Source: Acidobacteriota bacterium (GTDB lineage Bacteria > Acidobacteriota > Vicinamibacteria > Vicinamibacterales > UBA2999). Taken from it: 64,000 nt of DNA. Shown piece by piece: positions 3,202 to 26,883 of the stretch (position 1 is the first letter of the stretch; each line of letters begins with the position of its first letter). The position numbers and the translations under genes are program-made. Below the pieces are notes generated by a model, which worked only from the letters and a program-made list of their open reading frames with translations, was not told the DNA's origin and ran no database searches. The stretch is taken from positions 434,001 through 498,000 of the forward strand of contig JAUYQQ010000022.1 of the NCBI GenBank assembly GCA_030697165.1. Reading direction: 5' to 3'.

Positions 3202-3238
3202 GGCCGGGATTGTACGCCGAGGGCCGCCTTTGATATCC

Positions 3239-3310
3239 GGCTAAAGCCGGATGCTACACCGGCAGGCTAAAGCCGGATGCTACATCGACGAGCTGAAGCC
3301 GGATGTCACA
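3239..3310. repeat. Three tandem 26-nt REP-like units between divergent genes
   Basis: Three copies of a unit containing AAGCCGGATG recur at 3239, 3265 and 3291, an exact 26-nt spacing. Copies 1 and 2 share GGCTAAAGCCGGATGCTACA and the third is degenerate. The first unit, with its flank, forms a small hairpin (CCGGCT-AA-AGCCGG). The block sits between two divergently transcribed hydrolase genes, so it lies in their shared promoter region. It resembles REP elements in size and palindromic content. Confidence 0.85.
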
Positions 3311-3375
3311 TTGGCAGTCCGGCTCCCGCGATGTGTTAGATTCACGAGATTCCAGACCACCAATTGCAGAGGCTT

Positions 3376-4407
3376 ATGTTCACACTCCAGCGATCGCTCG
3401 TGTTCTCGTTCCTGCTGTTCGGCCTGGCGGCAACCGCCGCGGCGCAAGGCGGCAGCGTGCTGCCGCCCGTGCCCACACCGACCGACGTGAAACCTGGCAG
3501 CATTACCTGCGACGAGTGTCCGTACCCGTATCCAAGCTCGTATCTCACTATCAGTGTCTATACCCAGGACGTCCGCATCTCGTATATGGACGTCGCGCCG
3601 CAGGGCACGCCGAACGGCCACACCGCGATGCTGCTGCACGGCAACAACTTCGGCGGCTTTTACTTCAAGGCCATCATCGACGGCCTCACCAAGGAGGGCT
3701 TCCGGGTCGTTGTGCCCGACCAGATTGGCTACGGCCGGTCGTCGAAGCCGATTGCGCCGTACAACTTCAACACGCAGGCGCGCAACACCTCGCTGCTGCT
3801 GCAGCACCTGAAGATCGAGAAGGCCATGGTGATTGGCCATTCGATGGGCGGCATGCTGGCGGCGCGCTTCGCCACGCAGTATCCGAAAATGGTCGAGCGG
3901 ATCGTGATCTACAACCCGATCGGCCTGACCGACGGGCGCTTCACGCGGCCCATGACGCCGATTGACGATGCCTACAGGAACACGCTGACGACGACCAACT
4001 ACCAGAGCACCCGCGCCGGCCTCGGCCGCTATGTCGCGCACAACCCGGCGGCGTGGAACGACGAGTTCGAGAAGTACACGCGCGTGCGGTATTCGTGGAC
4101 GCTCAGCGCCGACTGGCCGCGGCTGGCCATGGTGCAGGCGTTGATCAGCCAGATGCTGTACCAGGACCCGGTCGTCTATGACTGGGCGCACATCCAGGTG
4201 CCGACGCTCGCGTTCGGCGGCGCCGAGGACCTGCTGCTCGGACCCGCGGCGGCATTCCAGGAGCGCATGGCCTACCTGGCCAAGTCGGTCCCCAACGGCA
4301 ACGGCCGCGTGCACTTGATCCCGGGCCTCGGCCACGTGCCGCACCTCGAAGAACCCGAGAAGGTGTTACCGCCGCTCGTCGCCTTCCTGAAAGAGGGCGT
4401 GAAGTAG
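3376..4407 (+). CDS. Exported alpha/beta hydrolase
   Basis: A 343-residue protein. ATG 3376 is chosen over the in-frame TTG at 3364 because an AGAGG sequence lies a few bases upstream and the signal peptide (residues 1-24, ending TAAAQ) then starts normally. The alpha/beta-hydrolase core shows the oxyanion motif HGNNFGG (88-94), the nucleophile elbow GHSMGG with Ser156, an acidic residue in FGGAED and a C-terminal GLGH (His320). This is a typical serine hydrolase or esterase-like triad. It is divergent from the epoxide-hydrolase relative at 3201. Substrate not predictable. Confidence 0.87.
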   Translation: MFTLQRSLVFSFLLFGLAATAAAQGGSVLPPVPTPTDVKPGSITCDECPYPYPSSYLTISVYTQDVRISYMDVAPQGTPNGHTAMLLHGNNFGGFYFKAIIDGLTKEGFRVVVPDQIGYGRSSKPIAPYNFNTQARNTSLLLQHLKIEKAMVIGHSMGGMLAARFATQYPKMVERIVIYNPIGLTDGRFTRPMTPIDDAYRNTLTTTNYQSTRAGLGRYVAHNPAAWNDEFEKYTRVRYSWTLSADWPRLAMVQALISQMLYQDPVVYDWAHIQVPTLAFGGAEDLLLGPAAAFQERMAYLAKSVPNGNGRVHLIPGLGHVPHLEEPEKVLPPLVAFLKEGVK

Positions 4408-4447
4408 CGCGGACCGCGGGCCGGGCATCCGTCGCATACTGGAACCA

Positions 4448-5338
4448 ATGGTTCTGCGCCAGCGCCCCTCCGTCTCCGACGCGGTCGATCGGTCGACGCC
4501 CCTTGGCGTCATCGACTACCTGGCCACCTCGCCGGCGGTGGAGTTCAAGAACGTGTCGATCGCCTTCGACGACAACGTCGTCCTGCGCGATCTGAGCTTC
4601 GCCATCCCACGTGGCGACATGCGCATTCTGCTGGGGCGCAGCGGCTCCGGCAAGTCGGTGCTGCTCAAGTTGATCCTGGGTCTGCTGCGCCCGGACGCCG
4701 GCACGGTGCTGGTGAATGGCGTGCAGGTGGACCATCTGCCCGAGCGCGACCTTCTCGAAGTGCGCGGCGGTATCGGGATGGTGTTCCAGGAGAACGCGCT
4801 GTTTGACTCGTTGACCGTCGCCGAGAACGTCGGCTATCGCCTCTCGGACCAGGCGACGATGCCGGTCGAGGCGGTTCGCGAGCGGGTGGCGGCCGTGCTC
4901 GGCTTCGTCGGACTTGCCGAGTACGCCGATCGGCTGCCGTCGGAACTGTCGGGCGGCGAGCGGCGGCGCGTGGCGATTGCCCGCGCCATGGCCCCGGCAC
5001 CTGGCATCCTGCTGTTCGACGACCCCATCACCGGTCTCGATCCGCTGATCGCCACGACGATCGACAACGAGATCGTCAAGTTGAGGGATCTCGAGCAGGT
5101 GACCTCGGTCCTCGTCACTCACCAGATCCGCGATGCGTTCTACGTGGCCACTCATCGCGCGGTGTGGCACGACGGCGAGGTGCAGGTGGTGAGCGCCGAC
5201 GCGGCGTCACTGCCGCACGTGGAGTTCATGGTGCTGCACGAGGGCCGCATCTACTTCCAGGGCAGCGCCGCCGAGTTGCTGGCCGCTCCCGATCCCTATC
5301 TCAGGGAATACCTGTTGCTCACGCTGCCGCCCTGGTAG
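4448..5338 (+). CDS. MlaF/Ttg2A-like ABC transporter ATPase, orphan
   Basis: A 296-residue ATP-binding subunit. Walker A is GRSGSGKS (63-70), the signature is LSGGE (167-171), Walker B is ILLFDDP (187-193) and the H-loop is VTHQ (His225). The closest family by pattern is MlaF/Ttg2A, the ATPase of MCE-type lipid transporters. No MlaE permease or MCE protein lies next to it. The residue after the Walker B aspartate is Asp192 where a catalytic Glu is expected. The 30-residue N-terminal extension is unusual. It converges on the small lipoprotein gene with only 12 bases between stops. Confidence 0.82.
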   Translation: MVLRQRPSVSDAVDRSTPLGVIDYLATSPAVEFKNVSIAFDDNVVLRDLSFAIPRGDMRILLGRSGSGKSVLLKLILGLLRPDAGTVLVNGVQVDHLPERDLLEVRGGIGMVFQENALFDSLTVAENVGYRLSDQATMPVEAVRERVAAVLGFVGLAEYADRLPSELSGGERRRVAIARAMAPAPGILLFDDPITGLDPLIATTIDNEIVKLRDLEQVTSVLVTHQIRDAFYVATHRAVWHDGEVQVVSADAASLPHVEFMVLHEGRIYFQGSAAELLAAPDPYLREYLLLTLPPW

Positions 5339-5350
5339 CGTCGCGCGGCC

Positions 5351-5527
5351 TTACCGTCGCAGCTTGCTGAACCCGTAGCCCGCCACCACGACGATCAGCA
5401 CCACCACGATCACCCCGGTCACCATGCCGGCCTTGAAGATTCCGCCGATAACCTCGCAGCCGGCCGACACCATGGCCAGGCTCACGAGCAGGACTAATCG
5501 CATCACGGTCGTTGATTGCATGTTCAT
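5351..5527 (-). CDS. Small lipoprotein with one transmembrane segment
   Basis: A 58-residue protein. The N-terminal signal ends in a lipobox-like VSAGC (Cys24), followed by a second, strongly hydrophobic segment of Val/Ile/Leu (about residues 35-50) and a basic tail KLRR. Its ATG overlaps the stop of the YihY gene as ATGA, so the two are probably translationally coupled. I do not recognise a function. A role alongside the YihY membrane protein is an inference from coupling alone. Confidence 0.65.
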   Translation of the reverse strand: MNMQSTTVMRLVLLVSLAMVSAGCEVIGGIFKAGMVTGVIVVVLIVVVAGYGFSKLRR

Positions 5528-6474
5528 ATTTGGCCGCCCCGTCCGGCCTGGGTTAGAGATTGCTGACGTTGACTGTAGGCGCGCGCCGCGCGTCGGCCGA
5601 TGACCTGCCGGCCCGCTGCCGACTTCTCGCCTGCATACGGCGAGGCATGTTCGATTTCGGAGTTGAACTCGGCGCCCACCAGGATCGCCAGGCCGGACAG
5701 GTAGAACCACAGCAGCAGCAGGATGACGCCGCCCAGGGCCCCGTACGACGCGTTGTAGTCGGTGAAGTTCGATACGTAGAGCTTGAACCCCACCGACACG
5801 AGCAGCCACAGGATGGTCGCGAGAACCGCGCCGGGCGAGATCCACACCCAGTCCTGGTCGGCGTCCGGCCCGAAGTAATAGAGCAGGCCGATGGCGAAGG
5901 CGACGAACGCGAAGGCGAGTGGCCACTGCAGGACGAGCCAGGCCGCCGCGAAGGCGGCGCCCAAGCCGGTCAGTTCACCCAGGTAACGCGCGACCGCTGG
6001 GCCGGACAGCACCAGGCTGAACCCGAGCAGGATGAAGACGGCTACGCCGAGGGTCAGGCCAATGGCCACGAGCCTGACCTTCCACCACGGGCGAGTCTCG
6101 GTGAGGTCGTAGGCCCGGTTGAGTGAACTGACGATCGACACGATCGCGGCGGAACTGCTCCACAAGGCGCCGACCACTCCCGCCGTCATCAGCCCGCCGC
6201 TTTCCGCACTGGCCAGTCGCTCCATCTGCTCTTGAATGAGTTTCAGAACCTCGGCGGAGACCAGCGGCCCGAGCGCGCGCGTGACATCGTCGGTCAGGTT
6301 TTCGATTGGAAAAAAGCTGGCCGTGGCGAGCAGGAACAGCATCGCCGGGAATAGCGACAGGAAAAAGTAGTACGACAGCTGGGCCGCGAGCCCGAGGCAG
6401 TCGTCATCCATGCACTCCTTGTAAGTGCGACGAAGCAACTCAAATAGGGAAATCGGCAGGGCAGATCCCAGCAT
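5524..6474 (-). CDS. YihY/BrkB-family inner membrane protein
   Basis: A 316-residue polytopic protein read from ATG 6474 (MLGSALPISLFELLRRTYKE). The frame stays open further upstream, but there it overlaps the TerB gene in another frame. Family features are an N-terminal LAAQLSYYFFLSLFPAML segment, a middle ALWSSSAAIVSIVSSLNRAYD region and several hydrophobic helices up to a WFYLSGLAILVGAEFNSE end. The family was once called ribonuclease BN in error; its real role in the envelope is unknown. No clear Shine-Dalgarno is seen. It lies between a TerB-like gene and a coupled small lipoprotein. Confidence 0.85.
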   Translation of the reverse strand: MLGSALPISLFELLRRTYKECMDDDCLGLAAQLSYYFFLSLFPAMLFLLATASFFPIENLTDDVTRALGPLVSAEVLKLIQEQMERLASAESGGLMTAGVVGALWSSSAAIVSIVSSLNRAYDLTETRPWWKVRLVAIGLTLGVAVFILLGFSLVLSGPAVARYLGELTGLGAAFAAAWLVLQWPLAFAFVAFAIGLLYYFGPDADQDWVWISPGAVLATILWLLVSVGFKLYVSNFTDYNASYGALGGVILLLLWFYLSGLAILVGAEFNSEIEHASPYAGEKSAAGRQVIGRRAARAYSQRQQSLTQAGRGGQI

Positions 6475-6538
6475 TGCGGGCTGGTAATGCAAGGACAGCG
6501 CCAGTGCTGACCGCTGAGCTGCCTGACTTGCGTGTGCG

Positions 6539-7087
6539 TTATTGCTCGGAGGGCTTGGTGCCTGACACGCCGGGCAGGAACGGCCGGTATTGCAGGCGGA
6601 TGGCGGTAAGCGTCTTGGGCTCGAGATACAGGAGATTGGCGATGCGGTGCACTTCCGTTTCCTCGGCCATCGAGATCCGCTGGTCGCTGGCCGCGACCGC
6701 GTAGAGGCAGCGTGCCAGCGCCACCTTCTCGTCGTCAGTGGCCGATGCGGCAAAGTCGCGCGCGACCTCGAAATCGGCGGTGCCGCCAAACAGCAGGCTG
6801 CTCGACTTGGCCAGGCCGACGACCAGCACCGCCTGTGCCGGCGACAGGCGGCCGTGCTCGATCAGCAGGGATTCCATGGTGCGCGTTTCTGCCGCGCTGA
6901 CTTGTTGGTCGGCGCGGGCGACGCGGCCGAGCAGGTAGGCAAACCGGGCCAGGTGTTGCGCGCGAGCCGGCTCGAGGCCATCGAGCGAGTCGACCAGGTC
7001 CCGCAGCGGCGTGCGTTCCGTCGCCGTGACGTCTTCGTCGGCCAACCCCAGCAAGTTTCGAAGTGCTGCCCTCATCGGCAATACCAT
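6539..7087 (-). CDS. TerB-like protein (tellurite-resistance/DUF533-type helical domain)
   Basis: A 182-residue all-helical protein. ATG 7087 is chosen because GGAG lies six bases upstream. The core reads as a TerB fold: FAYLLGRVARADQQVSAAE (a helix pair with an acidic loop), then ARCLYAVAASDQRISMAEE, which repeats the DxxIS/VSxxE pattern twice as in metal-binding TerB domains. No tellurite operon (TerC/D/Z) is nearby, so only the domain assignment is supported. It precedes the YihY gene on the same strand by about 65 bases. Confidence 0.72.
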   Translation of the reverse strand: MVLPMRAALRNLLGLADEDVTATERTPLRDLVDSLDGLEPARAQHLARFAYLLGRVARADQQVSAAETRTMESLLIEHGRLSPAQAVLVVGLAKSSSLLFGGTADFEVARDFAASATDDEKVALARCLYAVAASDQRISMAEETEVHRIANLLYLEPKTLTAIRLQYRPFLPGVSGTKPSEQ

Positions 7088-7130
7088 AGCGCACTCCACG
7101 CGAGGTGGCGCGAATGCTATAAAGGGAATT

Positions 7131-8381
7131 GTGAGTCGCGTCGTCGTCGGCCTGCTGGTTGCGCTCGCGCTTGCGACGCCGGCCGCGGCACAGGAGCATC
7201 ACCCAGAAGAAGCCTCGGGCACGTCGTGGCAACCCGCGGTCACGCCCATGACTGGCGCGCACGCGCAAGCTGGCGGTTGGATGCTGATGGGGCACGCCAA
7301 CCTCTTCGTCCAATTGTTGTACGAATCGGGCGACATCCACCGCACCAGCCACCAGGCCGGCAGCATCAACTGGTTCATGGGCATGGCCGAGCGGCCGATT
7401 GGCGACGGCCGCCTTGGCGTGCGCGCTATGCTTTCGGCCGAGCCATGGACGATTGGCGGGTGCGGCTATCCCGACCTGCTGGCTACCGGCGAAGTGTGCG
7501 ATGGCGACACGATCCACGACCTGCAGCATCCGCACGACCTGTTCATGGAGTTGGCAGCGAGCTACGAGCGGCCGGTCGGCGACCGGGTCCGGATTCACCT
7601 TTACACCGCGCTGGCCGGCGAACCGGCGCTCGGGCCGCCCGCCTTTCCGCACCGTGCGTCGGCCATGCCCAATCCGATCGCGCCGATTGCGCACCACTGG
7701 CTCGATGCCACGCACATTGCGTTTGGCGTGGTGACGGCCGGCGTATCGAGTGCGCGCTGGCGGGTGGAAGGGTCGGCGTTCAACGGCCGCGAGCCCGACG
7801 ACCAGCGCCACGGGCTCGAGTTGGCGCCGCTTGATTCGGTGTCGGTACGCGTCGCCTTCGCGCCAAGCGACCGTTGGTCGTGGCAGATGTCGGCGGGGCA
7901 CTTGCGCGATTCGGAGGCCGGGCTGGGCAGCCAGCCGCGACAGGACGTGACGCGCGCCACGGCGTCGGCGATGTACTACCGTCCACTGTCTTCGGGCGGA
8001 GGATGGGCGGTCACCATCGCCTACGGCGTCAACACGGAGACCGACGCGGTTCCCGAGGGCCTGCTCACGCAGGCGACGCACGCGGTGCTGGCCGAGTCGA
8101 GCGTGCGGTCAGCGAACGGCCGCCACCACTGGTTTGGGCGCATCGAAGCCGTGGGGAAACCCGCGCACGATCTGCACGTGCACGAGTACATCACGGAGGT
8201 TTTCACGGTTGGGAAGGCACAGGTTGGTTACCTGCACCAGTGGCCGGCGATCAAGGGCTGGGCCCCGGGCATCGGTGGGCATCTCAACCTGAGCATCGTC
8301 CCGCCGTTGCTGGCGCCGCGCTACGGCGGGCAAGTCGCGCCCGGCGTGGGTGTCTACGTCAATTTGCAGCCCGGCTGGTAA
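7131..8381 (+). CDS. Putative outer-membrane beta-barrel protein
   Basis: 416 residues from GTG 7131, which has AAAGGGA just upstream; the signal peptide (LVALALATPAAAQ) then begins properly. After cleavage the mature N-terminus is His-rich (EHHPEE). The rest alternates aromatic and polar residues in barrel-like strands and ends in NLQPGW with a terminal aromatic, as many barrels do. A central block (DLQHPHDLFMELAASYE, then FPHRASAMPNPIAPIAHHWLDATH) is rich in His and could bind metal. No named family can be assigned with certainty. Its position near a metal-efflux operon is suggestive only. Confidence 0.65.
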   Translation: MSRVVVGLLVALALATPAAAQEHHPEEASGTSWQPAVTPMTGAHAQAGGWMLMGHANLFVQLLYESGDIHRTSHQAGSINWFMGMAERPIGDGRLGVRAMLSAEPWTIGGCGYPDLLATGEVCDGDTIHDLQHPHDLFMELAASYERPVGDRVRIHLYTALAGEPALGPPAFPHRASAMPNPIAPIAHHWLDATHIAFGVVTAGVSSARWRVEGSAFNGREPDDQRHGLELAPLDSVSVRVAFAPSDRWSWQMSAGHLRDSEAGLGSQPRQDVTRATASAMYYRPLSSGGGWAVTIAYGVNTETDAVPEGLLTQATHAVLAESSVRSANGRHHWFGRIEAVGKPAHDLHVHEYITEVFTVGKAQVGYLHQWPAIKGWAPGIGGHLNLSIVPPLLAPRYGGQVAPGVGVYVNLQPGW

Positions 8382-8390
8382 GCCGCCGGC

Positions 8391-9290
8391 TCATTTGCTG
8401 GCGGGTCCGGTCAGGTTGATCGCGGCGCGAACCGCGGCTGCGAGTTTCTCCGCCGGCCCCTGTCCCCAGTAGTGCAGAAAGATCACCGTCGGCTGCGTGC
8501 CGGTCATGTGATGGTGAATGGCGACGACCTCGATGCCGTGGTCGCGCAGTGCCTTCAGCACGGGCGTGACTTCTGTGTCGATCATCGCCACATCGCCGGC
8601 GACCACCGCGGCGGTGTCGGAGCCGAAGAACGCCGCCCAGGTGTTGAGGCCCATGCGGGCGTCGATGGTCGCGCCCATTTCCACCAGTTTCAGGTCGGGA
8701 CGGCCGATCGTGATCTTGTAGACCTGTCCATTCTGCTCGCCGGCGGTGCCGATGATGCTCGCCAGCTTGGCCGTGTCGAGTGGGCCCGCCGTCACCGTCG
8801 AGGTCATGACCGGTGCCGCGTCAGGCCTGGCGGCGACCTTGCCGATCAGGTCCAGGGCCGGTTTGATCCGCCGGGCCAGGTCGGCCGCCGAGCCGTGCCC
8901 ATGCACGTGCATGTAGAACAGGCGCGGCGACTCCCAGAAGAAGTGGTTGTGCAGCGCGGTGACGTCGAGTCCCTGTGCGAGCACGGCCGACATCACCGGG
9001 TTCACTTCGTCTTGCGTGAGGACGAGGTCCCCCATCATCACGTCCATGCCGCCGGTGCCTTTGCTGAGCGCGACCCAGCCGCCGAACCCAAACGGCGTCG
9101 GTAAGGCGACGCCGGCGACGGTGACCTTAAGGTCGTTGCGCGGGATGTTGACCTTGAGCACGCCGTCCTTGAAGTCGCCGGTGCGCGCCAACGTATCGAG
9201 GACGCCCTTATAGTCGGCGGGCATCTCTTGCGCCACGGCACCCGAGGCGGCGAACAACATCAGCGCGATGGCGATCAACGACTTGGTCAT
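8391..9290 (-). CDS. Exported DUF1259 (LppY/LpqO-type) protein with two repeats
   Basis: 299 residues from ATG 9290 with a clear signal peptide (MLFAASGAVAQ). The mature protein contains two DUF1259-like halves. Each has a conserved VA-D-x-(V/I) strand followed by a His-rich stretch: ALHNHFFWESPRLFYMHVHGHG in the first and IHHHMTGTQPTVIFLHYWGQG in the second. The clustered histidines suggest metal binding. The family is of unknown function and is known from LppY/LpqO lipoproteins of mycobacteria. It follows the CusA-like gene on the same strand after about 100 bases and may be an accessory of metal handling. Confidence 0.82.
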   Translation of the reverse strand: MTKSLIAIALMLFAASGAVAQEMPADYKGVLDTLARTGDFKDGVLKVNIPRNDLKVTVAGVALPTPFGFGGWVALSKGTGGMDVMMGDLVLTQDEVNPVMSAVLAQGLDVTALHNHFFWESPRLFYMHVHGHGSAADLARRIKPALDLIGKVAARPDAAPVMTSTVTAGPLDTAKLASIIGTAGEQNGQVYKITIGRPDLKLVEMGATIDARMGLNTWAAFFGSDTAAVVAGDVAMIDTEVTPVLKALRDHGIEVVAIHHHMTGTQPTVIFLHYWGQGPAEKLAAAVRAAINLTGPASK

Positions 9291-9391
9291 GGTCACTCCC
9301 AGAATCCACTGCGCATTGGACCTGCCAGTGTACCCGAACCGCAGCCAGTGTTGGCGTCGGCGTGGTGTGACTGGCTGTCTGGACCGGATGG

Positions 9392-12300
9392 TCACGCACC
9401 CAGCTCTAGCGGGGCCGCCGCCGAGGTGGCTCCGTCCGCCATCGCGACGCGCACCTGGTGACGACGCCACATCGCGTAGGCGGCGGGAAGTACGAGCAGG
9501 GTCAGCACCATGCACGACCAGAGGCCGCCGACGACCGGCGCGGCGGTGCGCGCCGAGACGTCGGCGCCGATGCCGGCCTCCCACAGCAGGGGCAGCAGGC
9601 CGAGGACGGTCGTGGCCACGGTCATGACGAGCGGCCGGACGCGGGCGGCCGCCCCTTCGACGACTGCGGCATCGACGTCTTCGGGTTTCTGAATGCGGCC
9701 CTCGCGCACGTATCGCAGGAATGCTTCATCGAGGTAGACCACCATCACGATCCCGGTTTCCGCAGCGACCCCCGCCACGGCGATGAGTCCGACCCACACC
9801 GCGGTTGACAGGTTGTAGTCCAGCAACGCCAACAGCCAGACGCTGCCGGCCAGTGCAAACGGCAGGCTCGTCAACACCAGGAACGTTTGCGGCCAACCGC
9901 GCATCGCGAGATACAGCAGGATCACGACAATGATCAGCGTCAGTGGGATGATGTATTGGAGCCGCGCTTCCATCTCGGCGAGGAACTCGTATTGCCCGGT
10001 CCATTGCAGCCGATAACCCGCCGGCAGGCTGAGCTGCTCGGCGACCAGCAGCTTGGCGTCATCGACCCACCCGCCGAGGTCCCGCTGCGTCGGATCGATG
10101 TCGGCAAACACGTAGCCGACCAGCACGCCGTTTTCGTCCTTGATCATCGGCGGGCCGGTGGTCACGCGCACATCGGCGAGCTCGCCGAGTGGGATCGCCG
10201 CCCCGGGCTGGCGCCACTGCTCCATGAAGTCGGGTGACGCCGTGAGCCCGCCCATCGCCGGCGGCGTCAGCGCCGATGAGATGCGGCCGCCGCCGGACAT
10301 GCCGCCACCCATTGCGCCGCCCATCCCGCCGCCCGCTCCGCCAGCCGGGGCACCGGACATGGAGCCGCCCTGCGCGCTGGCGCCGCGACCCGTGTTGCCG
10401 CCGGCGAAGTCCATGACGCTGGCCGTCGACTGCACCGGCACCAGGATGCGGCGCAGGGACTCCGGGTCGGCGCGCTGGTCGGCGGCGTAACGCACGTTGA
10501 TCGTGAAGCGGGCGCGTCCCGCGATGACGGTCGACACGGTCATGCCGCCGACGGCCGCCTCGACGACGTCCTGGACGTCGCGCACCGACAAGCCGTATCG
10601 GGCAATCGCCTCGCGGTTGGGAACGATGTCGATGTACTCGCGGCCGGTCTGCCGTTCGGCGAACGTGCTGCGGGTACCCGGCACCTGCCGCAGCATGCCC
10701 TCGAGGTCGACGCTGATCCGTTCGATCTCGGCCAGGTCGTCGCCAAACACCTTGATGCCGGCCGGTGTACGGACGCCGGTCGACAGCATGTCGATGCGCG
10801 TGCGGATGGGCGGCGCAATCGCCATCTGGTACCCCGGCATCTGCAGCGCGGCATCGAGGTCGCTCGACAACTGGGCGAGCGTGCGGGTGCGCTGCTCTGG
10901 CCACAACGGCCGCAGCGCCGGCTTCACCCAGTCGGGCGCCCGCGAACTGTACCAGCGGGGGGTGTAGCTGGCCGGCCACTGGTCGCGCGGGCGCAGCGCG
11001 ATCACCGATTCGATCATGTCCAGCTGCGCCGGGTCGGTGGCCGTCTCGGCTCGTCCCGCCTTGCCATGCACGGACGCCACTTCGGGAAACCCCATGATGA
11101 TGCGGTTCTGCATGGTCAGCGCCCGGCGCGCCTCCTCGATCGCGATCCCGGGAAACGTGGTCGGCATCACCAGCAGCGAGCCTTCGTCCAGCGGCGGCAT
11201 GAACTCCGAGCCGAGGCGTTGCGCCACCGGCACCGTCGCGATCATCAGCAGCACGGCCGCGGCGACCACGGCGATCCGGAAGCGCACAATCAGGACGGCC
11301 ACTGGCCGGTAGAGCGTCCGGAGGACGCGGCTGACCGGATTGGTGGCTTCGGTGCGGAAGCGTCCCCGCAGCAGGAGCACCATCAGCGGCGGCGCGAGCG
11401 TGATCGACAAAATCGCGGCGGCGAACATCGCCAGCGTCTTGGTGTAGGCGAGCGGCGTGAACAGCTTGCCCGCCTGGCCGGCCAGCGTAAAGATGGGCAG
11501 AAAGCTGACCGTAATCAGCAGCAGCGAGAAGAAGATCGGCCGGCCGACTTCCTTGCAGGCATCGACGATCACCTGCTTGCGATCGGACCCCTTGGGCGCC
11601 GCGGCGAGGCGGACGTGGGCGTTTTCGATCAACACGATCGCCGCGTCGGCCAGTTCGCCGATGGCAATGGCGATGCCGCCCAGGGACATGATGTTCAACG
11701 ACAGGCCCAGGTAGCGCATGGCGATGAACGACAGGAGCACCGACAGCGGCAGCACGATCATGACCACCAGTGCCGAGCGCAGGTGAAACAGGAAGACCAG
11801 GCAGACGATCGTGACGATCACGGCCTGCTGCATCAGCGTCTGAGTCAGCGTGCCGACCGCTCCGAGAATCAGCTCGGACCGGTCGTAGGTGGGGACCAGC
11901 TGCACGCCGTCGGGCAGGCGCAGCGTCGCGATTTCCGCCTCGAGCGCGCGAATAACCTGCAACGCATTGGAGCCGATGCGCATCACGACGATGCCGCCCA
12001 CGGCCTCGCCCGTGCCATTCCAGTCGGCCGCGCCGCGACGGATCTCGGGTCCGAAGCGCACGCTCGCGACGTCGCCGAGACGGATCGGTGTGCCGCCCGC
12101 GCCGACGGCGACCACGCTCTGCTCGAGGTCGGCCAGGGTCTTGACGTAGCCTCGGCCGCGCAGGACGTATTCGCGACCGGCGAGTTCGAGGACCCGGGCG
12201 CCGACTTCGGCGTTGGCCTCGCGCACGGCCCGGGTGACGTCGGTCAGGGTGAGCCCAAACGCGACCAGGCGATCGGGGTTGATGACGACCTGGAACTGGC

Positions 12301-19371: not shown

Positions 19372-19598
19372 CCACCCAAACGCATGTAAGCGCGACACCA
19401 GCCCAGATTGGACAAGGCGGTTCCCTAAACAGGGAAACCTCGGGATGCCGGCGCTACGCATGCGGCTCTCGGAGAGGACTTATGCAAGCCCATGTCCACG
19501 CCGCTCCTGTCCATGAGTGTCTCTTTCGGCACAGGTTGGCGTCCCGTCTGTTGATACCGTTCAGTGGATGACCGCGTTGAAAGGGACCACGGTTGAGC

Positions 19599-20639
19599 AT
19601 GTCTGAGGCGAACAAGGTCAGGGTGGCCGTGAACGGCTACGGCGTGATCGGCAAGCGGGTGGCGGCAGCCGTGGCGTGCCAGGAGGACATGACGCTGGCT
19701 GGCGTGTCAGATGTCGTGACGGACTGGCGGGCTCGGATGGCGATTCGACATCACTTTCGTCTGTTTGGTGCCACGGGCGAACACGCCAACGCCATGCGTG
19801 CGGTCGGGTTGGGAGTTGCCGGTACGTTGGACGACCTGTTGGGCCATGCTGACATCGTCGTGGACTGCACCCCCAAGCACGTTGCCGCAAAGAACATCGA
19901 TGGTTATCGCCGGCGCCGATTGAAGTTCATCGTGCAGGGCGGCGAGAAACACGAAGTGACCGGCCATTCCTTTGTGGCCGAGTCCAACTACGTCAGTGCC
20001 ATCGATCGCGATGCGACTCGCGTGGTGTCGTGCAACACCACCTCGATCGTCCGAACACTGACCGCACTCAAGCGCGCCGGGTTGCTTCGGCGTGCCAGAG
20101 GGACTCTGCTCAGACGCGCGACTGATCCCTGGGAGAGCCACGACAGCGGGATCATGAACACGCTGGTGCCAGAGCCTGAGATCCCGAGCCACCAGGGTCC
20201 CGATGCACAGAGCGTCGATCCGGATCTCGACGTGCTGACCATGGCAGTGAAAGTGCCGGAGACGATCGGGCATCTCCATTATTGGTCGGTGCAAATGACG
20301 CGCAGTGCCAGCCAAGACGAGGTGCTCGACGCGTTTCGCACCTCATCTCGAATCGCGCTGATCAACATCAGCAACGGCCTGCCGGCCCTCAACTCGGTGA
20401 AGGAGTTCATGGCCGATCGCGGACGGCCCCTCGCTGACCTGTACGAAGTGGCTCTCTGGGCCGACATGTTGCGGGTCCAGGGCGACGAACTGTTTTACGC
20501 GTATATGGTCGACAATCAGGCCATCGTCATCCCTGAGACGATCGACGCCATTCGAGCGTTGACGGGACGTGAGAAGGATCCGAGCAAGTCGATGGCCCGC
20601 ACCAATGCCGCGCTCGGCATTGACGCCCTGTTGGGCTGA
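19599..20639 (+). CDS. gap: Type II (archaeal-type) glyceraldehyde-3-phosphate dehydrogenase
   Basis: 346 residues from ATG 19599; TTG 19593 is a weaker alternative. The N-terminal nucleotide-binding motif is VAVNGYGVIGKRVA, followed by the SD-x-x-x-D-W-R segment. The catalytic Cys145 lies in SCNTTS, and the overall order (DCTPKHVAAKNI, FIVQGGEKHEV, VPEPEIPSHQGPDAQ, HLHYWSVQM) follows the archaeal type II family, not the usual bacterial GapA. The enzyme oxidises glyceraldehyde 3-phosphate with NAD(P). It stands alone, between metal-related genes and a two-component system. Type II enzymes are uncommon in bacteria, which suggests transfer or a special redox role. Confidence 0.87.
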   Translation: MSEANKVRVAVNGYGVIGKRVAAAVACQEDMTLAGVSDVVTDWRARMAIRHHFRLFGATGEHANAMRAVGLGVAGTLDDLLGHADIVVDCTPKHVAAKNIDGYRRRRLKFIVQGGEKHEVTGHSFVAESNYVSAIDRDATRVVSCNTTSIVRTLTALKRAGLLRRARGTLLRRATDPWESHDSGIMNTLVPEPEIPSHQGPDAQSVDPDLDVLTMAVKVPETIGHLHYWSVQMTRSASQDEVLDAFRTSSRIALINISNGLPALNSVKEFMADRGRPLADLYEVALWADMLRVQGDELFYAYMVDNQAIVIPETIDAIRALTGREKDPSKSMARTNAALGIDALLG

Positions 20640-21240: not shown

Positions 21241-21270
21241 ATCCTGACGGGAACTTCAGGATGCGTTCAG
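21241..21270 (+). promoter_or_regulatory. Operator-like array (TTCAG-N6-TTCAG) before the response regulator
   Basis: ATCCTGA, seven bases, TTCAG at 21255, six bases, TTCAG at 21266. The two TTCAG units are spaced 11 nt, the typical half-site spacing of OmpR/PhoB-family regulators. The identical layout recurs at 23380-23409 in front of the decaheme cytochrome gene, including the leading ATCCTGA. This suggests autoregulation by the response regulator encoded at 21312. Confidence 0.65.
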
Positions 21271-21311
21271 GGCGGTTCTTGCGGAAGGCTGTTACTCTGG
21301 TCGCTGCAACC

Positions 21312-21998
21312 ATGATGCGGGTGCTGGTGATCGAGGACGACCCGAAAGTGGCCGCCGCCGTGAAGGCCGGCCTGCAAGGCGAGGGCTACGAAGCCGTGGT
21401 CTCCGCGACCGGCGAGGACGGCTACTTCCGGGCGACGACCGAGCCGTTCGATGCCATCCTCCTCGACCTCGGACTACCGGGCCGCGGTGGGCTGGAAGTC
21501 CTGGCGAGCCTTCGCGGGCAGGGCTTGAAGGTTCCGGTGCTGGTGCTGACCGCCCGCGATACCGTGGACGACCGCGTCAAGGGTCTCGACGCCGGAGCCG
21601 ACGACTACCTGGTCAAGCCCTTTGCCTTCGCCGAATTGGTGGCCCGTGTGCGGGCGATGCTGCGCCGCGGGCGACCCGAAGAGACCCTGCGGCTGCGGCT
21701 GGCCGACCTCCAACTGGATCCGATCACCCGGTCCGCCACCCGCGGCGACCTGCCGATCGAGCTGACCACGCGGGAGTTCGAGCTGCTCGATTACCTGCTC
21801 CGGCACCAGGGACACATCGTCTCGCGCGAGATGCTGGCCCGCGACGTCTGGAAGCAGCCCGATCGCGGCACGCCGCTCGACAACGTGATCGATGTCCACA
21901 TCACCCGCCTGCGCAAGAAGGTGGATCAAGGCGCCGGGGAACGGCTGATCCACACGATCCGGGGTGTCGGGTTCCTGATGAAGAACGGGGCGCTGTGA
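21312..21998 (+). CDS. OmpR-family response regulator (CusR/CopR-like)
   Basis: 228 residues from ATG 21312. The receiver domain has the acidic pair ED9-10, phospho-acceptor Asp52 in LLDLGLPG, Thr80 in LTARD and Lys102 in YLVKPF. The C-terminal winged helix (LTTREFELLDYLLRHQGHIVSREMLARDVWK to RKKVDQGAGERLIHTIRGVGFLM) binds tandem half-sites. Its gene overlaps the sensor kinase start by four bases. Two matching operator-like arrays flank the two-component operon, one upstream of this gene and one ahead of the decaheme cytochrome. It therefore probably controls itself and the electron-transfer genes. Confidence 0.92.
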   Translation: MMRVLVIEDDPKVAAAVKAGLQGEGYEAVVSATGEDGYFRATTEPFDAILLDLGLPGRGGLEVLASLRGQGLKVPVLVLTARDTVDDRVKGLDAGADDYLVKPFAFAELVARVRAMLRRGRPEETLRLRLADLQLDPITRSATRGDLPIELTTREFELLDYLLRHQGHIVSREMLARDVWKQPDRGTPLDNVIDVHITRLRKKVDQGAGERLIHTIRGVGFLMKNGAL

Positions 21999-23386
21999 CG
22001 GCGCTCGGCCTGCGGACGCGGCTCACGATCTGGTTTGCCGCGTCCATCCTGCTCATCCTGGCGCCGTTCCTGATCTGGATCCTGGCGTTGCAGTGGCAGT
22101 CGATGCGCGCGGCCCTCGATCACCATCTCGCGGAAGACCTGGAGGTCGTGCTCGAGATGCTCGCCGTCCGCGATGGCGCCATCAGGTGGCGCACCGAGGT
22201 CGAACACGACCTGGGCTACGATGCCGGCGAGCGGCGCTGGGTGGAGGTGTACGGGCCAGACGGGACCGTGCGCTACCTGCGCGGGCTGCCCGATCGCGCC
22301 GGCCTCCGCGACGCGCTTCCCCGGCCCGTGGCCGAGCCCCCCGGCTACCGGACGATACGCACACCGGCCGGGGCCTCCGTCCGGACGCTGGTCGCCGACC
22401 GGACGGTCGGGACCGAGGTCGTGCGGGTGCGCGTCGCGCGTGCCGAAGACAAGCTCAGGGCCGATCTCTGGTGGCTCGGACTCGTGTTTGGCCTGGCCGC
22501 GCCACTCGCCGTGCTGGCAGCTGCCGTCTCGGGGTACTTCATTTCGGGCAAGGCGCTCGCCCCCCTGGGGCGCATGGCCGACCGCGCGCGCGCCATCGGC
22601 GCCGACCAGCTTTCCGAGCGTCTCCCGGTCGAGAACCCGAACGACGAACTGGGCCAGCTCGCCGCGGTGTTCAACGAGACGTTTGCGCGGCTCGAGCAGT
22701 CGTTCGCGCGGTTGCGGCAGTTCACCGCCGACGCCTCGCACGAACTGCGGACGCCGCTTACCGCCATCCGCAGCGTCGGCGAGGTGGGGCTGCGCGAAGC
22801 CAGGGACGTGACCGACTATCAGGAGATCGTCGGCAGCATGCTCGAAGAGTCCGACCGCCTGTCGCACGTCGTCGAGACGCTGCTGACCCTGTCCCGGTGG
22901 GAAAGTGGGCGAGTCCATCCGCGGGCGGACGCCGTGGACCTCGGTGACATGGTCCGCGACGTGGCGGCGCAGCTGGGGGTGCTGGCCGAGGACCGCGACA
23001 TTGCAATCGAGGTCGCCATCGACCGGCCGCTCAGAGCGGTCACTGACGAGGTCATGGCGCGCCAGGCGTTCTGCAACGTCCTCGACAACGCGATCAAGTA
23101 CACCCGCGAAGGCGGCCGGATCCGGATCGGGTGTGCGAGTCCGGCCGGCGAGCACCAGGTCGTTGTGGACGATGAAGGGCCGGGCATTCCGGAAGACCAG
23201 CGCCAGCGCGTGCTGGAACGGTTCTACCGGATCGAGGGGGGGCACTCGCGCCGCCTCGGTGGTGCGGGCCTGGGGCTGGCGATCGTGCACTGGGCGATGA
23301 CCGCCAACGGGGGCCGCGTCGCGATCGGCGACAACGACGCCGGCGGGGCCCGGGTCGTGCTGGCCTGGCCGGCATCGCCATCCTGA
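21995..23386 (+). CDS. Sensor histidine kinase (CusS-like)
   Basis: 463 residues from GTG 21995. It has two transmembrane helices (about 11-32 and 160-183) with a periplasmic sensor loop of about 125 residues between them. A HAMP linker, the HisKA motif FTADASHELRTPL (His249) and a HATPase_c domain with NVLDNAIKYT, DDEGPGIP and GAGLGLAIV complete the protein. The sensor loop has few Cys/Met/His residues, so the signal cannot be named as copper from sequence. Its stop codon lies inside the second operator-like array. Confidence 0.92.
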   Translation: MTALGLRTRLTIWFAASILLILAPFLIWILALQWQSMRAALDHHLAEDLEVVLEMLAVRDGAIRWRTEVEHDLGYDAGERRWVEVYGPDGTVRYLRGLPDRAGLRDALPRPVAEPPGYRTIRTPAGASVRTLVADRTVGTEVVRVRVARAEDKLRADLWWLGLVFGLAAPLAVLAAAVSGYFISGKALAPLGRMADRARAIGADQLSERLPVENPNDELGQLAAVFNETFARLEQSFARLRQFTADASHELRTPLTAIRSVGEVGLREARDVTDYQEIVGSMLEESDRLSHVVETLLTLSRWESGRVHPRADAVDLGDMVRDVAAQLGVLAEDRDIAIEVAIDRPLRAVTDEVMARQAFCNVLDNAIKYTREGGRIRIGCASPAGEHQVVVDDEGPGIPEDQRQRVLERFYRIEGGHSRRLGGAGLGLAIVHWAMTANGGRVAIGDNDAGGARVVLAWPASPS

Positions 23387-23409
23387 ACGCGAATTCAGAA
23401 TCTCTTCAG
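23380..23409 (+). promoter_or_regulatory. Second TTCAG-N6-TTCAG array, before the decaheme cytochrome gene
   Basis: ATCCTGA-N7-TTCAG-N-AT-N3-TTCAG, with TTCAG at 23394 and 23405. It is identical in layout to the array at 21241-21270. It ends about 100 bases upstream of the cytochrome start, leaving room for a promoter. The leading TGA doubles as the kinase stop codon. Confidence 0.65.
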
Positions 23410-23507
23410 TTCCACGGCTCCGTCACACTCCTAGACTGGAGTTGATTCACTTCGACGCGCGCTCGACGCGGGCGCCCGCCAGGACCGTGAAGGCAGGAGT
23501 TACTGTC

Positions 23508-24422
23508 ATGTCACAACATCGTTGGGGATGGCTGGTCGGCGCCGCCGCCGCATTCGTGGCGTCGCTCGCCTGGAGCGTCGCCTCCGCGAAACCACCCAAG
23601 CCGCTCGACTGGGCGGCGCTGAACCCGGCGTTCGCCGGCGCCACCTTCGTGAACGACACGGCGACCTGTGCCACGTGTCATGGCGACTACCTCGAGGCCT
23701 ACGGCAAGACCAAGCACGCCAAGGCCTTTGCCGCGAAGTCGCCCGATGGCGTGGGAGAATGTGAAAGCTGCCACGGTCCGCGCAGCAAGCACATCGAGAA
23801 TCCGACCGCCGAGCTGGCGATCGTCGAGGCCCGGTCGCAGTCGCTGGTCTGCGCCCAGTGCCACGAGGGCGGCTCGCGCATGGGATTCAAGGCCGGCGCG
23901 CATCTCAACGCCGACGTGAGCTGCCAGTCGTGCCACACGGTGATGACGCCGGTGAGCGAGCGGGCATTGCTGAAGACGGCCACCGCGTCCGACACCTGCT
24001 ACACCTGCCACGCCGAGGTGCGCGCCGACCTCAACAAGATGTCGCGCCACCCGGTGCGCGAAGGCCGCATGGACTGCGCCAGTTGTCACAACGTGCACGG
24101 CTCGACTCCGAGCCTGCTGACCAAGGCCACGGTCAACGACACCTGCTTTGTGTGTCACACCGAGAAGCGAGGCCCGTACGTGTGGGAGCACGCGCCGGTG
24201 CGCGAGAGCTGCGCGACCTGCCACACGCCGCACGGCTCGAACAACCGCAACCTGCTCAACGCCAAGGACTCGTTCCTGTGCCTCAGTTGCCATTCCTATG
24301 GTGGCCACATCAACCTGCCGCGTTACAACCGCACCAGCAATCCCTATGGCAGCGGCTGTGTGAACTGCCATACCAGCGTGCACGGGTCGAATCACCCGTC
24401 GGGCGCCAAGTTGACACGGTAG
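23508..24422 (+). CDS. DmsE/MtrA-type periplasmic decaheme c-type cytochrome
   Basis: 304 residues from ATG 23508; an in-frame TTG further upstream is less likely. A signal peptide ends near ASA (residue 27). Ten CxxCH heme sites are present in order: CATCH, CESCH, CAQCH, CQSCH, CYTCH, CASCH, CFVCH, CATCH, CLSCH and CVNCH. The size and ten hemes match the MtrA/DmsE/PioA family, which forms an electron wire inside an MtrB barrel. The barrel gene follows after ten bases. No outer-surface cytochrome or CymA-like quinol oxidase gene is in the window. Confidence 0.93.
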   Translation: MSQHRWGWLVGAAAAFVASLAWSVASAKPPKPLDWAALNPAFAGATFVNDTATCATCHGDYLEAYGKTKHAKAFAAKSPDGVGECESCHGPRSKHIENPTAELAIVEARSQSLVCAQCHEGGSRMGFKAGAHLNADVSCQSCHTVMTPVSERALLKTATASDTCYTCHAEVRADLNKMSRHPVREGRMDCASCHNVHGSTPSLLTKATVNDTCFVCHTEKRGPYVWEHAPVRESCATCHTPHGSNNRNLLNAKDSFLCLSCHSYGGHINLPRYNRTSNPYGSGCVNCHTSVHGSNHPSGAKLTR

Positions 24423-24432
24423 GGGGGCTGTC

Positions 24433-26883
24433 ATGATCAAACTCATGCTCTTGTGCGTCATTCTCAGTGCGGCCGAGGCCTTCGGGCAGACCGCGCCGCC
24501 CGCGCCCCAGGCGCCGACGGTGGAAGTCAGCGGCAGCGTCGCCTCAGGCGTGCTGGGGCTCGACAACTCCACCAACTCGGCGAAGCTGACCGAGTACCGC
24601 GATCTGCGCAACAACTTCTTCGTGCCGGCCATGACCTTCTCGATGGCCGATCGCGCGGCGGGCTGGTATTTCGACCTGAGCGGCGTCAACGTCAGCCGCG
24701 ATGACCAGACCATCAGGGCCGAGGCCGGCTCGTTCGGCCGGTGGCGCCTCAAAGCCGACTGGGTCGAGACCCCGCACAACTTCAGCAACAAGGCGGTCAC
24801 GCCCTACCTCCAGGCGGCGCCGGGCTTGTTCACCGTGCCGGCCACCATCCCGATTACCTTCAAGAAGCTGGCGACGGCCGCAGCCGACGCCGCCGGCGTG
24901 CTGGCCAGCGATGACCTGATCGCGGCGTACCAGGCGGCCTTCCTGGTGCCGACGCCGCTGGCGATGCAAACCAATGCCGGCAGCTTCGCCGCCCGGTGGC
25001 TGGCGGTCGACAGCCTGGCTCTGGACGTGGTCTACGACCGTCGCGACAAGTCCGGTTCCCGGCCGACCTATGGCCCGATCGGCGATCGTCCGCCGCGCAC
25101 GTTGAATGTTCAACTGGCCGAGCCGGTGGACTACAACACCAACGAGGTCACCCTGGCGGCCGAGCATCAGGGCGGACGCTACCAGGTGCGTGGTGAGTAC
25201 CAGTTCTCCGATTTCGCCAACCAGATCGACACCATGCAGTGGCAGAACATCTACACCAACGGCCAGCCCGGCGCCACTTACGATGTCTGGGACCGATCGG
25301 TGTCCGTGTTCGGCGTCCGGCCGCTGTCGCCGGACAATCGTTACCACAACCTGACCGGCATGTTCGGCACCAACCTGCCGAAGGACAGCCGGCTGACGGC
25401 CACGGTCGCCTACGGCATGCTCGAACAGAACCAGACCCTGCTGCCCTACAGCTACCACAACGATCAGCTGGCCGTGCAGACGCTGCCGAGGGTATCGGCC
25501 GAAGCCGCGATCAACACGCTGAACTTCGTGGCGGACTACACCGTCACGCCGACCCCGAAGCTCAACCTGCGGGCGTACTACCGCAGCTACGACCTGAACA
25601 ACGACACGCCGTCCAGCAACTGGCAATACGTCACGCAGGACACCAGCAACCTGAACGGCACCGTGTCGTACTTGAACAAGCGAGTCAGCCTGCCCTACGC
25701 GTGGAACCGGCGCAACGCCGGGGTCGACGCCACCTGGCGCCTGCCGGCGCGGACCAGCCTGCTGGTGGGCTTCGAGCGAGAGTCGATGGACCGCGACCAC
25801 CGCGAAGCCGACACGGCCGAGAACATCTTCCGGGCCACGCTGCGCACGCGCGGCGCGCGGTGGGCGACGTTCGAGGCCCGCGCCCTGTTTGGCGCCCGCG
25901 ACGGCGGCGACTACCACAACACGGTCACCCGCGAAGGCTACTGGTACTCCCAGAGCGACGGCGTCGACAACAACAACCCGGCGCTGACCTTCGACAACCA
26001 TCCCGACATGCGGCGCTACGACGTGTCGGACCGCATGCGGCAGCAGTTCGACGTGCGGGCGAACTTCACGCCGCGCGACCTGGTGTCCCTGTCGGCGTAC
26101 GCGCGCTACCGGCATGACGACTTCGACTCGGACGTGCAGCCCTCGCAGCCGTTACTGGGCACCGGACTCGCTGAGCAGAATGCGGTGACACCGGGCAATC
26201 AGCTGGGGCGCCTCGACGACAAGCGGACGCGATTCGGCGTCGATGCCTACACCGAGGTCAAGACCGGCTTGTCCGTCAATGCGTTCCTGAACTTCGACCG
26301 CGGCACCGCGCTCGACCGGTCGCTCGAGTTCCAAGAGAACAACAAGGCCAATCCGAGCGTCGTGGCCACGGCGGAACTCGGCCCCTGGACGAGGGCCGGG
26401 AGCCAGTGGACGGCCGAGCAACGTGACGAGACGTGGAGCGCCGGCGTCGGCACGACCTGGCAGATCGCGCCTGACAAGGCCACCCTGATTGCCGATTACA
26501 CGGCCTCGCTGGCCAGCATCGACATCGACTACTCCGGTTTCGGCGTCACCAACTTTAACGGCACGCCGTTTCCGCCGAACCACCAGTTTGCGTTCTCGGC
26601 GCCGTCGACGGTGTCCGAAGACTGGCACGTCATCAACCTGCGGCTGGAAATCCCGGTGCGGGCGCTGGTCGTGGTGACCAGCTACACCTACGAGAACTAC
26701 GCGCTCGACGACTGGGCGCAGGCGAGCGCGGCGCCATGGGTGGAATCGGTGGGGGCGGACACCCTGCTGCGTGACACCTCCCGGTCGCACCAGTGGGGAA
26801 ACCGGTTATTCAATTTCGGGACCTATCTGGCGCCGCGGTACGTGGCGCACATCGGCTTCGTTGGATTCCGCTACCGGTTCTGA
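24433..26883 (+). CDS. MtrB/PioB-family outer-membrane barrel
   Basis: 816 residues with a signal peptide (MLLCVILSAAEAFGQ). The mature part has the family start (YRDLRNNFFVPAMTFSMADRAAGWYFDLSGVNV), long alternating strands (LNLRAYYRSYDLNNDTP, LPARTSLLVGFERESMDRDH) and the C-terminal HIGFVGFRYRF with terminal Phe for barrel assembly. The N-terminal CXXC found in Shewanella MtrB is absent. MtrB forms a 26-strand sheath around the decaheme cytochrome, so this gene and its neighbour together form a trans-outer-membrane electron conduit. The direction of electron flow is unknown. Confidence 0.9.
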   Translation: MIKLMLLCVILSAAEAFGQTAPPAPQAPTVEVSGSVASGVLGLDNSTNSAKLTEYRDLRNNFFVPAMTFSMADRAAGWYFDLSGVNVSRDDQTIRAEAGSFGRWRLKADWVETPHNFSNKAVTPYLQAAPGLFTVPATIPITFKKLATAAADAAGVLASDDLIAAYQAAFLVPTPLAMQTNAGSFAARWLAVDSLALDVVYDRRDKSGSRPTYGPIGDRPPRTLNVQLAEPVDYNTNEVTLAAEHQGGRYQVRGEYQFSDFANQIDTMQWQNIYTNGQPGATYDVWDRSVSVFGVRPLSPDNRYHNLTGMFGTNLPKDSRLTATVAYGMLEQNQTLLPYSYHNDQLAVQTLPRVSAEAAINTLNFVADYTVTPTPKLNLRAYYRSYDLNNDTPSSNWQYVTQDTSNLNGTVSYLNKRVSLPYAWNRRNAGVDATWRLPARTSLLVGFERESMDRDHREADTAENIFRATLRTRGARWATFEARALFGARDGGDYHNTVTREGYWYSQSDGVDNNNPALTFDNHPDMRRYDVSDRMRQQFDVRANFTPRDLVSLSAYARYRHDDFDSDVQPSQPLLGTGLAEQNAVTPGNQLGRLDDKRTRFGVDAYTEVKTGLSVNAFLNFDRGTALDRSLEFQENNKANPSVVATAELGPWTRAGSQWTAEQRDETWSAGVGTTWQIAPDKATLIADYTASLASIDIDYSGFGVTNFNGTPFPPNHQFAFSAPSTVSEDWHVINLRLEIPVRALVVVTSYTYENYALDDWAQASAAPWVESVGADTLLRDTSRSHQWGNRLFNFGTYLAPRYVAHIGFVGFRYRF

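Follow-up and report, generated by a model that had tools for sequence, protein, structure and literature searches.

We analyzed a 64-kb stretch of an Acidobacteriota genome (hereafter the window; G000:C22:434001-498000, from a genome of 5.39 Mb in 23 contigs) and focus here on one locus within it, at 21315-26883 on the forward strand. In this order, the locus encodes an OmpR-type response regulator, a sensor histidine kinase, a ten-heme cytochrome of the MtrA/DmsE type, and an MtrB/PioB outer-membrane barrel (Table 1). A sequence-only reading of the window had described these genes as a codirectional two-component system wired to a minimal electron conduit, and all four are present, on the plus strand and in the order that it gave. 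Below, we describe the proteins and their clade, and then the evidence that links the conduit to its neighboring two-component system.

Table 1. Features of the locus and the other conduits of the same genome. Positions refer to the window, except for the last two rows, where they refer to the stretch named.
Feature	Position	Strand	Basis and remarks
OmpR-family response regulator	21315..21998	+	PF00072 and PF00486; ATG 21312 is an alternative start
Sensor histidine kinase	21995..23386	+	PF00672 (HAMP), PF00512 (HisKA), PF02518 (HATPase); alignment
Decaheme c-type cytochrome, MtrA/DmsE type, 304 aa	23508..24422	+	AGGAG before ATG; 10 CXXCH; TIGR03508; 6r2q_A
MtrB/PioB-type outer-membrane barrel, 816 aa	24433..26883	+	PF11854; structure model; 6r2q_B
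Putative operator 1	21243..21270	+	CCTGA 21243-21247; TTCAG-N6-TTCAG 21255-21270; before response regulator gene
Putative -10 hexamer TACTCT	21293..21298	+	22 nt after operator 1; suggested by conserved position
Putative operator 2	23382..23409	+	CCTGA 23382-23386, overlapping the kinase stop codon; TTCAG-N6-TTCAG 23394-23409; before cytochrome
Putative -10 hexamer TAGACT	23432..23437	+	22 nt after operator 2
Second conduit, L004 (G000:C10:117000-135000)	3099-10197		MtrAB cluster with candidate quinone-linked partners
Third conduit, L005 (G000:C22:172000-187000)	6663-11086	minus	GSU2203/GSU2204-type pair, both over cut-offs

By Pfam, the signaling genes form an OmpR-type two-component system: the regulator is a receiver joined to an OmpR-type winged helix, and the kinase has a sensor stretch of ~125 aa, which contains zero cysteines, followed by HAMP, HisKA, and HATPase domains. 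We place the most likely start of the regulator at ATG 21315 (or 21312) rather than at 21261, the start given by the open reading frame tool, as the latter falls within a repeat common to relatives. The cytochrome most likely starts at ATG 23508 and not at TTG 23442, because AGGAG precedes the ATG and the relatives agree with it. Kinase and cytochrome are separated by 121 nt, including an apparent separate promoter, and cytochrome and barrel by 10 nt.

A six-frame search of the window gives 12 CXXCH motifs, ten of which lie in the cytochrome. The protein scores 239 bits against TIGR03508 (DmsE family), over the cut-off of 192.2; this model spans MtrA, PioA, and DmsE types alike. Its top PDB sequence match is 6r2q_A (E 4e-58), a chain that carries the molecule label “Cystathionine beta-synthase” in an entry itself titled “Structure of the Mtr complex.” The assignment to ten-heme cytochromes of the MtrA/DmsE type stands. 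In an alignment of 35 sequences, ten His residues outside the motifs are conserved (7 invariant, 3 nearly invariant), making them candidate second axial ligands, as bis-His ligation needs. The cytochrome would reside in the periplasm.

The barrel matches PF11854 (MtrB_PioB) with 296 bits (cut-off 23), and its best PDB sequence match is 6r2q_B, a chain of the Shewanella Mtr complex. It misses the cut-off of NCBIfam TIGR03509 (197.4 vs 240.05 bits), as does the barrel of the second conduit in this genome (185.8 bits); this cut-off is a naming threshold and not a defining trait. A structure model based on 25 sequences (the window and named loci) reached a predicted local distance difference test score (pLDDT) of 79.1 and a predicted template modeling score of 0.73, with 26 long strands as counted from the listing. 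Foldseek placed 6r2q_B first (E 9.6e-38; runner-up 1e-8), and VIA-align superposed the model on 638 residues of this 649-residue chain at 2.5 A (Z 28.0; runner-up Z 16.8), setting 6r2q_B alone clearly apart from other barrels. The predicted 26-strand fold thus agrees with the claimed MtrB/PioB identity, and since the model fits Shewanella MtrB, the lumen should be able to hold an MtrA-like cytochrome.

Barrels of this family are common in the phylum, and close relatives of the window barrel are not. PF11854 matched over its cut-off in 87 of 396 phylum genomes, and 1 of 14 control genomes gave a match, which was below the cut-off. A search of the same phylum sample with the window barrel itself returned 12 genomes at E 1e-40 or better; ten genomes, the window's own included, scored 504-1877 bits, with the next at 172 and then 139 bits. 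A contig scan with the barrel alignment yielded 31 loci (denoted by L numbers), all titled as metagenome-assembled genomes and 14 with “NC_groundwater” in the title. The titles name Acidobacteria, Vicinamibacterales, Vicinamibacteria, Holophagaceae, Gemmatimonadetes/Gemmatimonadota, Deltaproteobacteria, Desulfobulbaceae, Desulfobacterales, Desulfuromonadales, and Schekmanbacteria. One of the 31, L120, is a short fragment match that may not belong. The scan seeds on short patterns and can miss members, so that the absence of isolates is no proof.

Cytochrome phylogeny sets the window conduit in a distinct clade with good support. Among the 74 rows of the tree, a branch of length 0.66 (support 100/99) separates the 29 clade rows, one of which repeats a contig, from all others, Shewanella MtrA included. 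The tree excluded rows with fewer than nine CXXCH, L096 among them, and the same-contig repeats L043, L065, L072, L121, and L123. L096 is the window's nearest relative by barrel, and in its first heme motif (L096 1840-1870) an in-frame TGA takes the place of the second cysteine codon. We considered a selenocysteine reading of this TGA, but the downstream RNA folds no better than shuffles (z 0.11), which makes it likelier that the L096 cytochrome is a broken gene in a decaying copy. Separately, L132 (G399:C12) holds at ~4.3-5.7 kb a match to the MtrB profile with four in-frame TGA codons, perhaps a selenoprotein or a broken barrel; several conduits are present in that genome.

We then compared how often a two-component system adjoins the conduit inside and outside this clade. 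The clade set comprised 35 loci (the window, L090-L120, L045, L060, and L062), with L043, L065, and L072 dropped as repeats of L096, L095, and L107. A locus was counted as linked if a regulator and a kinase lay on the same strand within 3.5 kb, and as evaluable if it had at least 3.5 kb of flank on each side. A codirectional two-component system stands beside the conduit in 17 of the 19 evaluable clade loci, and in 11 of 12 when only loci of the window's phylum are counted. The other 16 clade loci divide into two with short flanks and a pair, two with one partner near a contig edge, five with short flanks and no pair, and seven without a complete cytochrome. L122, a clade locus added later, has its pair downstream on the opposite strand, which brings the codirectional count to 17 of 20.

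Outside the clade, the same arrangement is rare. Of 36 non-clade loci, taken from the phylum and including the genome's other two conduits, 28 were evaluable; two had a pair (L055 and L066) and two had one partner. The Fisher test for 17/19 vs 2/28 gives P = 9e-9, a value that ignores kinship and overstates the contrast because the loci are related. The 40 comparison stretches had been hand-picked from a longer list of PF11854 matches (29 within the same order or closer, 11 from elsewhere in the phylum), and six turned out to be clade members. As a same-genome control, we considered 17 other conduits in genomes that hold a clade member, namely nine fetched later from five genomes and L004, L005, L044, L046, L059, L063, L064, and L066; L128 (barrel at a contig edge) and L133 (no recognized cytochrome) were not counted, and a few of the conduits used have short flanks. 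One of these 17 (L066) had a pair, and L046 and L129 had one partner in or near reach.

The sequence-only reading proposed to seek the order of regulator, kinase, decaheme cytochrome, and barrel in other genomes; seven clade loci, the window included, have an OmpR-type pair upstream. The linkage claimed for one locus is a property of the whole clade, with a putative operator at both transcription units of the window locus. It could still be argued that the genes are chance neighbors, with the two-component system controlling something else and the conduit expressed constitutively. A separate promoter-like sequence precedes the cytochrome and barrel genes, so co-transcription with the kinase is not required, and L108 and L111 manage without an adjacent system. 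The counts of 17/19 vs 2/28, together with an operator conserved before the cytochrome, render chance adjacency highly improbable. As a side observation, the non-clade locus L055 (G229:C149) lies in the Shewanella MtrA branch and has a regulator and kinase directly upstream of the conduit, followed downstream by genes that by eye resemble a molybdopterin oxidoreductase.

Both transcription units of the window locus are preceded by the direct repeat TTCAG-N6-TTCAG, whose exact form occurs in the window only at 21255 and 23394. We examined this putative operator in ten clade loci, grouped post hoc, that have a cytochrome and whose OmpR-type kinase matches that of the window with 294 bits or more. 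In 8 of the 10 (the window, L090, L091, L092, L097, L045, L060, and L062), the exact repeat stands 244-293 nt ahead of the first heme codon, and L116 has it before the cytochrome with one mismatch. The 400 nt ahead of that codon lack the repeat in the 18 remaining clade loci that have a cytochrome, and it occurs nowhere in the 36 non-clade loci, a scan that did not extend to the nine later control conduits. Regulator promoters carry the exact repeat in the window, L090, and L062, and a one-mismatch version in L092 and L045.

The surroundings of the repeat also recur at fixed spacing. Of the 11 exact sites at cytochrome and regulator promoters, nine have a CTGA half-site beginning 11 or 12 nt upstream of the repeat, and eight have a TAnnCT hexamer beginning exactly 22 nt downstream of it. 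The position of the hexamer would place the operator over the -35 region of both promoters, which is the arrangement of PhoB-, PmrA-, and CusR-like activators. PmrA/OmpR-like regulators bind tandem direct repeats with an 11-bp period, and the TTCAG repeats, a putative site for the regulator, have this period at both promoters and are conserved. Nine further similar regulators are encoded in the genome (E below 1e-30; the best is 50% identical), and specificity of the window regulator for this operator is plausible. Allowing up to two mismatches to TTCAGGAACTCTTCAG, a genome search gave five matches, with both TTCAG halves kept only at this cytochrome; a reversed control pattern gave one match. 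This search is blind to repeats with other spacers, and genome-wide uniqueness is therefore not established. A consensus scan gave zero sites resembling promoters (shuffle mean 0.5) and two resembling terminators, both on the minus strand (shuffle mean 3.2).

The operator also bears on what the system might respond to. A Cus-like resistance-nodulation-division (RND) efflux cluster lies 6-12 kb upstream of the locus and a DUF305 protein 3 kb upstream, and the top NCBIfam models of both signaling proteins are heavy-metal subfamilies. These observations would fit a Cus/Czc-type sensor of copper or heavy metals that governs the conduit as a metal-stress device, whose outward electrons reduce or precipitate metal ions at the cell surface. 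However, the regulator scores 231.3 bits against TIGR01387 (heavy-metal regulator, its best model; cut-off 279.2) and the kinase 263.2 bits against TIGR01386 (heavy-metal kinase; cut-off 292.55), both below threshold. Even with one mismatch allowed, the efflux cluster does not contain the repeat, and we did not favor a metal regulon defined by the operator, as both exact repeats in the window stand before this system. No efflux gene recurs in the clade flanks, though these mostly span 4-8 kb (most only 4-5 kb past the regulator), leaving farther neighbors out of range and being too short to reach equivalents of the window cluster. Other clade members, in addition, have unrelated regulators. 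On balance, we consider the metal-stress device unlikely.

Judged by their domains, the two-component systems of the clade are of several unrelated types. We typed the regulators of 19 clade loci with a pair, using Pfam on L105 and L095 and extending these assignments to their close relatives. An OmpR-type pair stands upstream in seven loci (the window, L090, L092, L045, L060, L062, and L107) and downstream in three (L097, L099, and L100), and L116 has its kinase upstream and its regulator downstream. Two loci (L095 and L101) have an NtrC-type pair upstream. In six deltaproteobacterial-type loci (L102, L104, L105, L106, L110, and L119), the upstream regulator joins a receiver to an ArsR-like helix-turn-helix; L110 has a second, OmpR-type pair downstream. 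For these deltaproteobacterial regulators we had considered the NarL type, which Pfam on L105 replaced with the receiver and ArsR-like combination. This fusion, at L105 6165-6815, is unusual in itself, and similar proteins are found in L102, L104, L106, L109, L110, and L119 (Pfam was run on L105 only). Regulator types have changed within the clade, suggesting selection on how such conduits are controlled.

Repeated pairing with unrelated sensor kinases could also be read in another way, with the conduit as an outer-membrane antenna that relays redox information inward from minerals outside the cell, to be read in the periplasm by the neighboring kinase, the main product being a signal. The NtrC-type kinases of L095 (3713-4843) and L101 (244-1983) have a single CXXCH before the kinase domain and are possibly c-heme sensors; the kinases of L099 and L100 have a CXXC in the sensor stretch; and the window locus has no inner-membrane partner. 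The same data are explained by ordinary transcriptional control, however, the sensor stretch of the window kinase lacks cysteine, and a single CXXCH is no proof of heme. Quinone-linked or iron-sulfur modules also stand beside the conduit in several members, largely identified by eye: L111 has a neighbor with a Fer4_5 domain (Pfam), with similar sequence seen by eye in L107/L072, L115 has b561-like and multiheme proteins, and L098 has a bc-type-like protein and 9-, 17-, and 11-heme proteins. We thus give the antenna very little credence for the window locus. Its extension to the multi-phylum clade, as signaling hardware that relays mineral redox state to the periplasm while kinase types are swapped repeatedly and the pairing is kept, is a long shot.

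Clustering of neighbors gave seven gene clusters present in at least three clade loci, three of which are the barrel, the regulator/kinase, and the cytochrome. A TauE/SafE-like permease lies directly after the barrel in five loci of deltaproteobacterial type (L102, L104, L105, L106, and L109; Pfam on L105 only) and at a distance in a sixth. The remaining clusters are an ATP-binding protein (at scattered places in five loci), a short protein preceding the kinase (three loci), and one more (three loci). A DmsEF-like conduit, supplying a terminal reductase outside the cell, would fit a cytochrome that scores above the DmsE-family cut-off. Nevertheless, no reductase is among the seven clusters, and TIGR03508 is also passed by the decaheme cytochrome of the second conduit, the model covering more than the DmsE type; a role of this kind seems very unlikely. 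Elsewhere in the window (19593-20639), this bacterium encodes a glyceraldehyde-3-phosphate dehydrogenase of type II, the archaeal type, which scores 435.5 bits against PRK04207 (cut-off 185).

The window conduit is not the only one in its genome, where a PF11854 profile search found three MtrB-type barrels. The cluster on C10 encodes, in order, a mono-heme cytochrome c, a nine-heme cytochrome, a cytochrome b561-like protein, a pentaheme NapC/NirT-like protein, a DmsE-type decaheme cytochrome, and MtrB; it is plausibly a complete quinone-to-outside route. The third conduit (C22, ~180 kb) adjoins a PAS-sigma54 activator. Matches to NapC/NirT occur in the genome on C10 (the pentaheme protein) and on C17 (a smaller protein) only. 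The surface decaheme MtrC/OmcA gave 0 matches to TIGR03507 in the whole genome, so the reported lack of MtrC holds genome-wide. The reported lack of a CymA-like partner is true of the locus, where the gene map and Pfam of the neighbors include no adjacent CymA-type gene (no profile search was made for PioC or MtoD), and fails for the genome, given the NapC/NirT-type proteins on C10 and C17. Similarly, “minimal conduit” describes the locus well and the genome poorly, as its two other MtrAB-type loci include one that has quinone-linked cytochromes. With three conduits in the genome, the window wire is not the sole one, and candidate inner partners are available in trans.

Taken together, we consider it probable that the locus is an inducible trans-outer-membrane electron conduit commanded by its own two-component system, and control by this neighboring system is the best-supported new point that comparative sequence analysis offers. 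In the mechanism we propose, the kinase would sense a periplasmic or envelope cue and phosphorylate the OmpR-type regulator. The regulator would then bind the tandem TTCAG repeats at the -35 of its own promoter and of the cytochrome-barrel promoter, and this binding would turn the conduit on. Inserted in the 26-strand barrel, the decaheme cytochrome would carry electrons over the outer membrane and exchange them in the periplasm with quinone-linked cytochromes encoded elsewhere, for example in the C10 cluster. We lean slightly toward outward rather than inward electron flow.

Several observations weigh against this interpretation. No two-component system adjoins the conduit in L108 and L111, which have full flanks, or in L093, L096, L098, L103, and L115, which have short ones, and the non-clade loci L055 and L066 also have a pair, so that the linkage extends beyond the clade. 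The nearest relative, L096, combines the stop in its first heme motif with the lack of an operator and of a two-component system (1.8 kb upstream, 8 kb downstream). L110, whose similar kinase lies downstream and whose other pair lies upstream, has no repeat before the cytochrome. The repeat is also missing before the regulators of L060 and L116 and, within one mismatch, of L097 and L110. The number of one-mismatch repeats in the window (4) was reached in 11 of 100 shuffles, and we therefore base the operator claim on the exact sites, with their location and conservation. Finally, the AlphaFold2 model of the cytochrome is poor (pLDDT 53.9), as expected without hemes, and of no use for docking.

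MtrAB conduits that lack MtrC are present in many genomes, and their substrate, direction, and control are not known. A clade with a two-component system and, in one branch, a likely operator offers a direct handle on this problem: the inducer of the promoter would tell when the wire is used. The operator could also aid the reading of environmental transcriptomes, because metagenome-assembled genomes are the source of all 31 loci of the contig scan, and “NC_groundwater” stands in 14 of the titles.

Among known systems, the locus resembles Shewanella MtrAB (6r2q) in its ten hemes, its adjacent mtrA-mtrB genes, and its barrel fold, and it differs from Shewanella MtrCAB in having no MtrC, a separate cytochrome clade, and an adjacent two-component system. 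The conduits PioAB (Rhodopseudomonas) and MtoAB (Sideroxydans) serve iron oxidation and are MtrC-less. The window locus likewise pairs cytochrome and barrel without MtrC; unlike PioABC and MtoABD, it has no PioC, MtoD, or CymA-type gene adjoining the conduit, within the limits of the search given above. The GSU2203/GSU2204 decaheme-barrel family belongs to the same superfamily as the window proteins, which nonetheless remain under the cut-offs of NF041028 and NF041027 (228.4 vs 325 and 67.8 vs 350 bits).

PioA/MtoA homologs have been reported in Acidobacteria (PMC10654088). The MtrCAB systems of Acidobacteriia and Gemmatimonadetes (PMC8805035) share core proteins with the window locus and come from overlapping phyla, but carry the mtrC that it lacks. 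The mtrAB of Desulfobacterota (PMC12133095), a group that also includes clade members, likewise have no mtrC alongside; those genomes have mtrC elsewhere, unlike the window genome. In the portions examined, “two-component” occurs 0 times in the main text of PMC12133095, PMC7399161, PMC6295460, PMC10654088, and PMC8805035, “histidine kinase” 0 times in that of PMC12133095, and “two-component” twice in PMC8235581, on cheY genes. We met no description of a clade conduit joined to a two-component system in the literature searched. The electrode-sensing network Esn of Geobacter (PMC5585712) uses a methyl-accepting chemotaxis protein, CheW, CheA, and a diguanylate cyclase rather than a kinase-regulator pair beside the conduit, and it offers a likeness in that signaling is needed for extracellular respiration on electrodes.

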